The notes under the pieces: model-generated
Seen by the model: the letters and a program-made list of their open reading frames with translations, nothing else
Told to the model about the DNA's origin: nothing
Database searches by the model: none
Position numbers and translations under genes: made by a program
Origin: Geminicoccaceae bacterium
GTDB lineage: Bacteria > Pseudomonadota > Alphaproteobacteria > Geminicoccales > Geminicoccaceae
DNA: 42,223 nucleotides
Assembly: GCA_020445645.1 (NCBI GenBank)
Contig: JAGRGG010000087.1
Coordinates: forward strand, 1 to 42,223
Direction of reading: 5' to 3'
Part shown: positions 6,917 through 40,217 of the stretch, one piece after another
How positions within the stretch are numbered: the first letter of the stretch is position 1
Layout of the letters: every line of letters begins with the position of its first letter

Positions 6917-6927
6917 TTAAGGTGGCG

Positions 6928-6931
<4 letters not shown>
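6917..6931 (-). promoter_or_regulatory. CtrA-type box upstream of the Flp pilin gene
   Basis: On the minus strand the sequence TTAACGCCACCTTAAC contains TTAA, exactly seven bases, then TTAA, which is the full CtrA consensus spacing. It forms part of an 11-base direct repeat of GGCGTTAAGG (6913-6922 and 6924-6933 on the plus strand). It overlaps the stop codon of dusA and lies about 57 bases before the pilin start. Activation by CtrA is inferred from the site and from the known regulation of pilA. Confidence 0.65.
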
Positions 6932-36403: not shown

Positions 36404-37452
36404 TGCGGGTCGACCTGTTCGACTTCGACCTGCCGCCGGGGCTGATCGCGCAGGCGCCGGCCGAGCCCCGCGACGCGGCGCGGCTGCTCCAGATAGGCCG
36501 GGGGGTGGAGGGGGAGCGCCTCGCCATCGCCGCCGTGCGCGACCTGCCGGACCTGCTGCGCCCCGGCGACCTCCTGCTCGTCAACGACACGAAGGTGCTG
36601 CCGGTGCGCTTTGCCGCATCGCGGCTGCCGGACGGGGCGCCGATCGAGGTGACGCTCACCGAACGGACGGACGGACGGCGCTGGCTCGCCTTCTTGAAGC
36701 CCGGCCGCAAGGTGCGGACAGGCGACCGCCTCCGCCTCGCCGAGGGGCTGGAGGCGGTCTGCGAGGGCAAGGAAGACGACGGGCGCGGGCGGCTCCGCTT
36801 CGACGCGGAAGGCGAGGCCCTGACCGGTCTCATCCGCGCGCGCGGACGGATGCCGCTGCCGCCCTACATCCGCACCGACGACGAAGCGGGGGAGCGGGCC
36901 AGCTACCAGACCCTGTTCGCGGCCCACGAGGGGGCGGTGGCGGCGCCGACGGCGGGGCTGCACTTCACGGAGGGATTGCTGGCCCGGCTCGACGCGCGCG
37001 GGATCGAGCGGGCGGCGCTGACGCTGCACGTCGGGCTCGGCACGTTCCAGCCGGTCAAGGTCGACGACACGGCGGACCACGTCATGCACGCGGAATCCTA
37101 TGCCGTGCCGGAAGCGACGGCCTCGGCATTCCTGCGGGCGAAGGGGGAGGGGCGGCGCGTCGTCGCCTGCGGCACCACCGTCCTGCGCACGCTGGAGAGC
37201 GCGTTCGATCCCAAGACGGGCGGGCTGCGGACGGGGCCGGGGACGACCGGCCTGTTCATGACGCCGGGCCACCGCTTCCGCACGGCCGATCTGCTGCTCA
37301 CGAACTTCCATCTGCCGCGCTCGACGCTGTTCATGCTGGTCGCCGCCTTCGCCGGGCTGGAGACGATGCGCCGCGCCTACGCCCACGCGATCGAGGAACG
37401 CCTGCGCTTCTTCTCCTACGGCGACGCCTGCCTGATCGAGCGGGCGGCATGA
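36403..37452 (+). CDS. queA: S-adenosylmethionine:tRNA ribosyltransferase-isomerase
   Basis: This 349-residue protein makes epoxyqueuosine in tRNA from the preQ1 base inserted by Tgt. Family blocks include [56 protein letters not shown] and [21 protein letters not shown]. The ATG overlaps the coaD stop by one base, and the stop overlaps the tgt start (ATGA). Confidence 0.95.
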
Positions 37453-38573
37453 ACGGGCTCCGCTTCACCCTCCTTGCCCGGGACGGCACCGCCCGGCGGG
37501 GGCGGCTGGAGACGGCGCACGGGGCGATCGAGACCCCGGCCTTCATGCCGGTCGGCACGGCCGGCACGGTGAAGGCGCTGACGATGGACATGGTGCGGCA
37601 GGCAGGCGCCCAGATCATCCTTGGCAACACCTACCACCTGATGCTCCGCCCCGGCGCCGAGCGGGTCGGGCGCCTGGGCGGGCTGCACCGCTTCACCGGC
37701 TGGACGGGTCCGATCCTCACCGATTCGGGCGGCTTTCAGGTGATGTCCTTGAGCGCGCGGCGCAAGCTCACCGAGGCGGGCGTCACCTTCCGCTCGCACC
37801 TGGACGGGAGCGCCCACGAGCTGACCCCGGAGCGCAGCGTCGGGATCCAGGACTCCCTCGACGCGAACGTCACGATGCAGCTCGACGAGTGCCTGAAGCT
37901 GCCGGCGCCGCGGGGGGAGGTCGAGCGGGCGATGGAGCTGTCGCTCCGCTGGGCCGCGCGCTCGAAGGCGGCGTTCCGGACGCGCCCCGGCTACGGCCTG
38001 TTCGGCATCACGCAGGGCGGCACCGACGACGCGCTCCGCCGCCGCTCCGCCGAGGGGCTGAAGGCGATCGGCTTCGACGGCTACGCCATCGGCGGCCTCG
38101 CCGTCGGCGAGCCGCAGGACGCGATGCTGCGCACGATCGAGGCGCACGCCCCGGACCTGCCCGAGGACCGCCCCCGCTACCTGATGGGGGTCGGGCGCCC
38201 GGACGACATCGTGGAGGCGGTGCGGCGCGGGGTCGACCTGTTCGACTGCGTGATGCCGACCCGCTCCGGCCGGACGGGGCAGGCGTTCACCCGCTTCGGG
38301 ACGGTGAACCTGAGGAACGCCCGCCACAAGGACGACCCAGCGCCGCTCGACCCCGAGAGCGGCTGCCCGGCGTCGCGCGACTACAGCCGGGCCTACCTGC
38401 ACCACCTCGTCAAGTCGGACGAGATCCTGGGGGCGATGCTGCTCACCTGGAACAACGTCTGGCACTACCAGGACCTGATGCGCGGCCTGCGCGCCGCGAT
38501 CGAGGCGGGGCGGCTGGGCGACCATGTCGCCGCCTTCAAGGCGGACGAGGCACGCAGCGGCCCGCTGCCGTAG
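37449..38573 (+). CDS. tgt: tRNA-guanine transglycosylase with degraded zinc site
   Basis: This 374-residue enzyme exchanges guanine for preQ1 at position 34 of certain tRNAs. The catalytic aspartates are in DSGGFQVM and [14 protein letters not shown]. The zinc site, CxCxxC plus a distant His in E. coli, here reads S304-G-C306-P-A-S309, with Asn335 where the histidine should be. Only one of four ligands remains. The rest of the domain (YSRAYLHHL) is intact, so the protein is probably functional without bound zinc. This may be a trait of its lineage. It ends the coaD-queA-tgt operon. Confidence 0.94.
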
Positions 38574-38628: not shown

Positions 38629-38736
38629 AGCGAAGCCGCCCGACCCCCGGCCGCTGCTCCGATCGGGGGCGGCGGACGCGCTTCGGCGTGAATGGACGGG
38701 TGGCCCGCGGCCGGCATCGGGTCGGGCGCGCAGGCT

Positions 38737-38751
38737 TTAAGTCTTATTTAA
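38737..38751 (+). promoter_or_regulatory. CtrA-type box upstream of the M23 peptidase gene
   Basis: The sequence TTAAGTCTTATTTAAC contains TTAA, exactly seven bases, then TTAA, the full CtrA consensus. It lies about 90 bases before the GTG start in an AT-rich segment. A -10-like TATCCT lies at 38764-38769. Confidence 0.65.
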
Positions 38752-38781
38752 CTCCCGGTGGAATATCCTTGGCGCTCTCAC

Positions 38782-38792
38782 GTTTATTAAAC
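38782..38792. promoter_or_regulatory. Palindrome GTTTATTAAAC before the M23 gene
   Basis: This perfect 11-base palindrome (five-base arms around a central T) lies between the CtrA-type box and the start codon. It may be a binding site for another regulator. Confidence 0.35.
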
Positions 38793-38840
38793 CTGTGGGC
38801 GAAAAAGTAACGCTGCCCACTACCTAAGGGAAAATGCATC

Positions 38841-40061
38841 GTGCCGAACCAGCGTGTCCTAGGTCTGTTCGTGGCCGCCCTGCTCCTGCCGACGCCTCTC
38901 CTAGCGAAGACCAGGGACGCGCAGACGTACCTCAGGTGGTGCCAGGACAACGTCCGGGACGGCGCCACAGCCAAGGCCGACGAACATTGCGGCTTGTACG
39001 CGAAAGCGGCCTTGAGCGAAGGCCTGGGCGTTTGGACGCGGGCGGACGTCGTGGCCGCCGTGGCGCAGAAACACCGCCTCGACGCCGCCAAGGCATCCAC
39101 CATTTCCAAACCCGCGCAGCAACCCGCTGCGGGCAATGTCGACGCCACGGCGGGCGACAAGGCCAACACCTACCTGGAGTGGTTTCAGAACAACGTGCGC
39201 GGCAGCAACCCTTCGCGCGCCGACCAGCATTGGAAGTTTTACACCCAGTACGCGGGCAAGGCCGGCTTGCCCTTATGGCGACTCAGCGACGTGGAAGCGC
39301 ACGCGAAGCGCACGTTTAAGAAGTTGAGCGCGTTCGACGCACCGAATGCGTCGCCCGCGCCCTCCAAGCCCGCCCCCGCGCCGTCCACGCCCAAAACCGA
39401 GGCGCCGGCGCCGGCCAAACCGGGCGTGCCGGAGGACTGGGACGAGGCGTGGCACGACCCGTCCGACCTCGACGGCAAAGCCGACAACGGCGAGAGCACG
39501 CCCTACGTGAAAGACCTCATCGCCAAGATGGGGAGCGACCTCGTGGGTTCGGGTTTCCAGCAGGGTCAGGGATACCTTTCACAGCACTACATGGGCCACG
39601 ACACCCCGGTTCAGTATCCGGGAAGGGGCTTGGTCTACATCCGCCATACGGGCACCGACTTTCCAAAGCCAATCGGCACGACGGTCCGGGCGCTGACGCC
39701 GGGCGTGGTCGTCGGCACCTACAACGATGCCAAGACGAGCAACCAAGCCCTCGCCGTCGTCAAGGAGGACGGGGCCGACCGCTGGTGGGTCTACCTCCAC
39801 ACGTCCTACCGGGTGAAGCAGGGGCAGCACGTCGCCAAGGGCACGGTGATCGGTACCATCGCCGACCCGAGGGGGGAGTGGAACCATCCCCACGTCCACG
39901 TGAACGTCATGACGACGTGGCCCCTCAGCCGCGCGGTGTCGCAGTATCTCAGCCTCGGCCGCTCGTACCACCCCAACCGGGACGAAGCGGTCCGACTTGC
40001 CAAGGCGTATACCATGCACCCGCTCGAGGCCTACGCGCGCGCGAACGGCCTGCTGCCCTGA
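38841..40061 (+). CDS. Secreted M23 (LytM-type) peptidase with a duplicated N-terminal module
   Basis: This 406-residue protein has a signal peptide (about 1-22). Two copies of a 48-residue module follow at 27-74 and 108-155, sharing 20 identical positions without gaps by eye (TYLxWxQxNVR, ADxH, GLxxW, DV). A Pro/Ala-rich linker (about 168-196) leads to the C-terminal M23 domain. The zinc ligands are present: His269 and Asp273 in HTGTD, and His353 in HPHVHV, with His320 and His351 nearby. It probably cuts peptidoglycan cross-links. The GTG start follows AAGGGA by about 11 bases; an ATG at 38834 is in another frame. It sits alone, between tgt and tRNA-Lys. Confidence 0.82.
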   Translation: MPNQRVLGLFVAALLLPTPLLAKTRDAQTYLRWCQDNVRDGATAKADEHCGLYAKAALSEGLGVWTRADVVAAVAQKHRLDAAKASTISKPAQQPAAGNVDATAGDKANTYLEWFQNNVRGSNPSRADQHWKFYTQYAGKAGLPLWRLSDVEAHAKRTFKKLSAFDAPNASPAPSKPAPAPSTPKTEAPAPAKPGVPEDWDEAWHDPSDLDGKADNGESTPYVKDLIAKMGSDLVGSGFQQGQGYLSQHYMGHDTPVQYPGRGLVYIRHTGTDFPKPIGTTVRALTPGVVVGTYNDAKTSNQALAVVKEDGADRWWVYLHTSYRVKQGQHVAKGTVIGTIADPRGEWNHPHVHVNVMTTWPLSRAVSQYLSLGRSYHPNRDEAVRLAKAYTMHPLEAYARANGLLP

Positions 40062-40141: not shown

Positions 40142-40217
40142 GCGCCCCTAGCTCAATTGGCAGAGCAGCTGACTTTTAATCAGCGGGTTCGGGGTTCGAG
40201 TCCCCGGGGGCGCACCA
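40142..40217 (+). tRNA. tRNA-Lys (anticodon UUU), with encoded CCA
   Basis: All four arms pair. The acceptor is GCGCCCC with GGGGCGC, the anticodon stem is GCTGA with TCAGC around loop CTTTTAA, and the T stem is CGGGG with CCCCG around TTCGAGT. The anticodon TTT reads lysine codons. CCA is encoded at 40215-40217. The 3' end is followed after 48 bases by an integrase gene, so this tRNA is the likely integration site. Confidence 0.97.

Follow-up and report, generated by a model that had tools for sequence, protein, structure and literature searches.

A predicted CtrA-activated promoter before a lineage-specific M23 peptidase gene in a Geminicoccaceae bacterium

In Caulobacter, promoters activated by CtrA from a full site carry TTAA-N7-TTAA near -35 (PMC4287350, PMC11264516), and a worked example places the 5' nucleotide of such a box at -39 (PMC4287350). 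Caulobacter CtrA also regulates its own gene (PMC8116508). In the Rhodospirillales, Magnetospirillum and Rhodospirillum centenum have motility-type regulons with boxes before flagellar and chemotaxis genes, and loss of ctrA is harmless to growth in both; motility is the proposed original role of CtrA, which is dispensable in related early-branching orders (PMC8116508). As for the cell wall, the LD-transpeptidase genes of A. tumefaciens have been proposed from motifs as wall-remodelling CtrA targets (PMC11527210). The locus described here resembles each of these systems in part. It lies in a window of 42,223 nucleotides (the whole stretch of DNA that was analysed) from a Geminicoccaceae genome. 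By comparison of Tgt, which comes closest among named sequences to those of an unclassified alphaproteobacterial MAG (76%) and a Geminicoccaceae MAG (74%), the family would probably be Geminicoccaceae as well. The core and spacing of its box are identical to those of the Caulobacter full sites, and the distance from the box to a putative -10 element equals the Caulobacter -39 placement, with binding and the start predicted here from sequence. As in A. tumefaciens, a wall enzyme is proposed as a target from a motif, whereas the enzyme class is another one, and the A. tumefaciens case has an atypical motif spacing and a Rhizobiales host. The features of the locus are as follows.

37449-38573, forward strand: tgt, the upstream neighbour, 267 bp from the M23 gene (Pfam PF01702, E = 4.4e-149)
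38737-38751, forward strand: full CtrA-type box TTAA-N7-TTAA, TTAAGTCTTATTTAA, next base C (exact match)
38764-38769, forward strand: -10-like element TATCCT, first base 12 after the box end, in a phase that matches 8 other boxes of the genome
38776 (about), forward strand: predicted transcription start, with the box 5' base at -39, from Caulobacter geometry (PMC4287350)
38841-40061, forward strand: M23 peptidase gene, GTG start, 406 amino acids, with a plausible signal peptide, two repeats of about 50 residues and an M23 domain (Pfam PF01551)
40142-40217, forward strand: tRNA-Lys(ttt), the downstream neighbour (ARAGORN)

The earlier note on this DNA had reported a TTAA-N7-TTAA match at 38737-38751, about 90 bases before the M23 gene and in an AT-rich promoter segment, and our counts agree on all three points. 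The match is exact, it is one of two in the window, and 100 dinucleotide shuffles of the window gave no such box; 89 bases separate its 3' end from the GTG at 38841, and the GC content at 38730-38800 is 46%, against 71% for the window. The probability of a box arising by chance in the 267-bp gap upstream of the M23 gene is 0.0003 by mononucleotide shuffle. The second box of the window, at 6917-6931, is not promoter-like: it overlaps the stop codon of a dus gene between convergent genes, all gene starts are more than 250 bp away, and offset 11-12 lacks a TANNNT.

The 7-base spacing is strongly enriched in the genome as a whole (3.78 Mb in 291 contigs, 95.8% complete), where 22 N7 boxes were found against 5 for the reversed control pattern. 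Across spacings of 2 to 20 there are 91 sites, and N7 accounts for 22 of them, while the other 18 spacings have about 3.8 each on average. About half of the other-spacing sites fall in AT-rich islands (all N7 sites were retrieved, the other spacings as a sample), and in GC-rich DNA the excess is roughly tenfold, with 20 N7 sites against about 2 for each other spacing. Chance is thus an unlikely source for about nine in ten of the N7 boxes that lie in GC-rich DNA. Moreover, none of the 22 N7 sites is intragenic, and 17 lie within 200 bp upstream of a gene start as called by a simple purpose-written gene finder based on codon scores. Across 31 genomes of the family the enrichment is uneven, for example 23 versus 0 in one genome and 60 versus 81 in another; since it differs so widely, the CtrA regulon seems to have been expanded or lost genus by genus within the family.

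When the boxes were read in the direction of the genes, TA-containing hexamers were first seen at a fixed distance, and they were then counted over all flanks. In GC-rich DNA of this genome, TANNNT stands at offset 11-12 after the box in 9 of the 40 N7 flanks and in 0 of the 32 flanks of other spacings. In the relatives it is found at these offsets in 18 of 111 box flanks, with other offsets well under one on average. Judged from these sequences, functional-looking boxes carry a putative TANNNT -10 element 11-12 bases on, a feature that is new here. With the 5' base of the Caulobacter box at -39, the -10 element should begin exactly 12 bases after the box; TATCCT at 38764-38769 has this offset, so that the start of the M23 transcript is predicted at about 38776. 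The M23 box is thus predicted to occupy the -35 position with a correctly spaced -10, as at a CtrA-activated promoter.

CtrA itself is encoded in the genome. Its gene is cut by the start of a contig (C9), and the remaining product matches NCBIfam NF045991 with 306.7 bits over 191 of 224 positions, the cut-off for the full length being 350 bits; the full-length CtrA of three relatives passes it. The ctrA promoter has a TTAA-N7-TTAA box 65 bp before the ATG, which serves as a positive control because CtrA is autoregulatory in Caulobacter.

Given that CtrA is encoded, that N7 boxes are enriched and that a -10 element follows the M23 box with the spacing expected, we consider that this box is probably (at a rough probability of 0.78) the operator of a real CtrA-activated promoter tied to a motility-type regulon. 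Bound over the -35 position at 38737-38751, phosphorylated CtrA would help RNA polymerase to use the -10 element TATCCT, with transcription beginning near 38776, and expression of the secreted M23 peptidoglycan endopeptidase would accompany that of the box-bearing flagellar and chemotaxis genes. In motile cells the enzyme might then serve to open the wall for envelope-spanning machines, or in cell separation.

Alternatively, the box could be a chance match in the AT-rich promoter of a gene that has an ordinary housekeeping promoter and no CtrA action, which we regard as unlikely. Because the segment is AT-rich, the chance of a box and that of a -10 element are both raised, and the roughly 2 sites per spacing in GC-rich DNA represent what chance would produce genome-wide. 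The M23 box also ranks last of the 20 GC-rich boxes by a spacer and flank score with preferences learned from the other boxes, a profile that is a weak discriminator with 20 sites, and its spacer and flanks are in this respect unlike the other boxes of its own genome. In addition, the promoter of the paralogue of the gene in this genome has no full CtrA box. Against this reading, only about one in ten of the GC-rich N7 sites can be attributed to chance, and the M23 site has in addition the phased -10 element, for which a local shuffle gives a chance of about 3%.

The genes behind the boxes indicate what kind of regulon the M23 gene may have joined. In this genome they are ctrA, flhA, a flhB-like gene, fliW, flgB/flgC, csrA, cheY and a lytic transglycosylase gene (slt) beside dapA, and further gpmI, the gene of an S24 (UmuD/LexA-like) peptidase and a TPR gene. 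The set in phase by TANNNT includes ctrA, the flhB-like gene, fliW, cheY, csrA, slt and the TPR gene, while flhA and flgB count as in phase by TA alone. Among the relatives, an in-phase box is found before ctrA in three genera and also before cheY, cheZ, fliF and two MCP genes. By its gene content the box set is a predicted motility and chemotaxis regulon with autoregulation, and it shares with the regulons of the Rhodospirillales the boxes before flagellar and chemotaxis genes; in contrast to those regulons, it would have as a further member a secreted M23 peptidase found in this genome only. The lytic transglycosylase gene, divergent from dapA, has its in-phase box at L039 2004-2018 (C204), and the gpmI box is at L032 1998-2012 (C119); both genes are candidates for other wall-linked or metabolic members of the CtrA regulon. 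A further box, at L029 1982-1996 (C36), lies between a small gene and the S24 peptidase gene, which is beside a UmuC-like gene, and recalls by analogy the proposed ancient link of CtrA to DNA repair.

This regulon bears on a special case of the CtrA-activated promoter, in which the site would confer true Caulobacter-like cell-cycle control and the wall hydrolase would be timed for division, as the earlier note had proposed. We find this somewhat less probable still than a chance match. CtrA is accompanied by SciP (PF06627, 132 bits), the lytic transglycosylase is another wall enzyme with an in-phase box, and in one relative a gene for a MipZ/ParA-like ATPase is behind an in-phase box. However, none of the 31 family genomes, this one included, has GcrA, while the control was detected in Caulobacter; in this the lineage differs from Caulobacter and from most of the Rhodospirillales reviewed (PMC8116508). 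ChpT (Pfam HPTransfase) was not found in this genome, which is a weak absence given the completeness of 95.8% and the divergence of ChpT. The gap upstream of the M23 gene has no GANTC, motility genes dominate the box set, and no cell-division gene was found behind any box of this genome; moreover, CtrA is dispensable in the Rhodospirillales studied (PMC8116508). Since GcrA is absent, ChpT was not found and the in-phase boxes are mostly those of ctrA, flagellar and chemotaxis genes, the CtrA-type promoter is retained from the earlier proposal, whereas its cell-cycle control is not supported, and cell-cycle timing of the M23 gene is a possibility that little favours. That CtrA binds the box and represses the gene is highly improbable: CtrA can repress from a site overlapping the -10 (PMC4287350), and the M23 start is a prediction, but with its in-phase -10 element the box falls at -35, the position for activation.

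The gene that the CtrA-activated promoter would serve looks like a single-gene unit between tgt and tRNA-Lys. Its product has a plausible N-terminal Sec signal, MPNQRVLGLFVAALLLPTPLLA, judged by eye, and an M23 domain at residues 269-358 (PF01551, E = 2.3e-14, 53.8 bits against a curated cut-off of 28.7). The zinc and catalytic residues of HxxxD and HxH are present as H269/D273 and H351/H353, and they are the same in the paralogue, which is 45% identical (L015 1498-2874, reverse strand). We therefore predict a secreted peptidoglycan endopeptidase, whose activity is read from the sequence. The M23 domain with HxxxD and HxH is shared with the LytM/lysostaphin-type endopeptidases ShyA, MepM and Pgp3, and the best PDB sequence matches are lysostaphin and ShyA. 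Unlike in those enzymes, the N-terminal half consists of the two repeats, and the protein scores far under the NCBIfam cut-offs of their subfamilies. In both paralogues the repeats (YLxWFQxNVR...WGLYTxYAxxAGL, window 38904-39310) lie ahead of the M23 domain; they match nothing in Pfam and nothing convincingly in the PDB. The structure prediction for the whole protein is poor (pLDDT 47).

The paralogue is the only relative of the M23 gene that was found. No orthologue is present in the 31 family genomes or in 385 genomes of the class, nor in viral contigs or phages; among plasmids there is no orthologue, the sole match being limited to the region around the M23 domain, 35% of the protein. By these searches the gene is lineage-specific and known from one genome. 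By codon use it is one of the three most atypical among 68 long genes, and because of this the gene and its promoter may be recent arrivals. Its GC3 is 0.865, where other genes have about 0.94, and it adjoins the tRNA-Lys gene. The gene may have been acquired horizontally. An origin from a phage endolysin or an island was considered and rejected: the PHROGs matches cover essentially the M23 domain only, and nothing further was found beyond the atypical codon use.

The -10 phase can sort full CtrA boxes from chance matches, and it offers a simple rule for other high-GC alphaproteobacteria. The content of the regulon, without GcrA, agrees with the view in the literature that CtrA started out as a regulator of motility, and the predicted wall hydrolase is added to the CtrA regulon of a little-studied, early-branching alphaproteobacterial family. 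We further propose, at what we judge to be even odds, that an endopeptidase of new architecture, with two helical repeats of about 50 residues before the M23 domain and known from this genome only, was captured by an ancestral motility-type CtrA regulon via a phased promoter. If this is true, a lineage-specific wall enzyme would be wired to the motile state.
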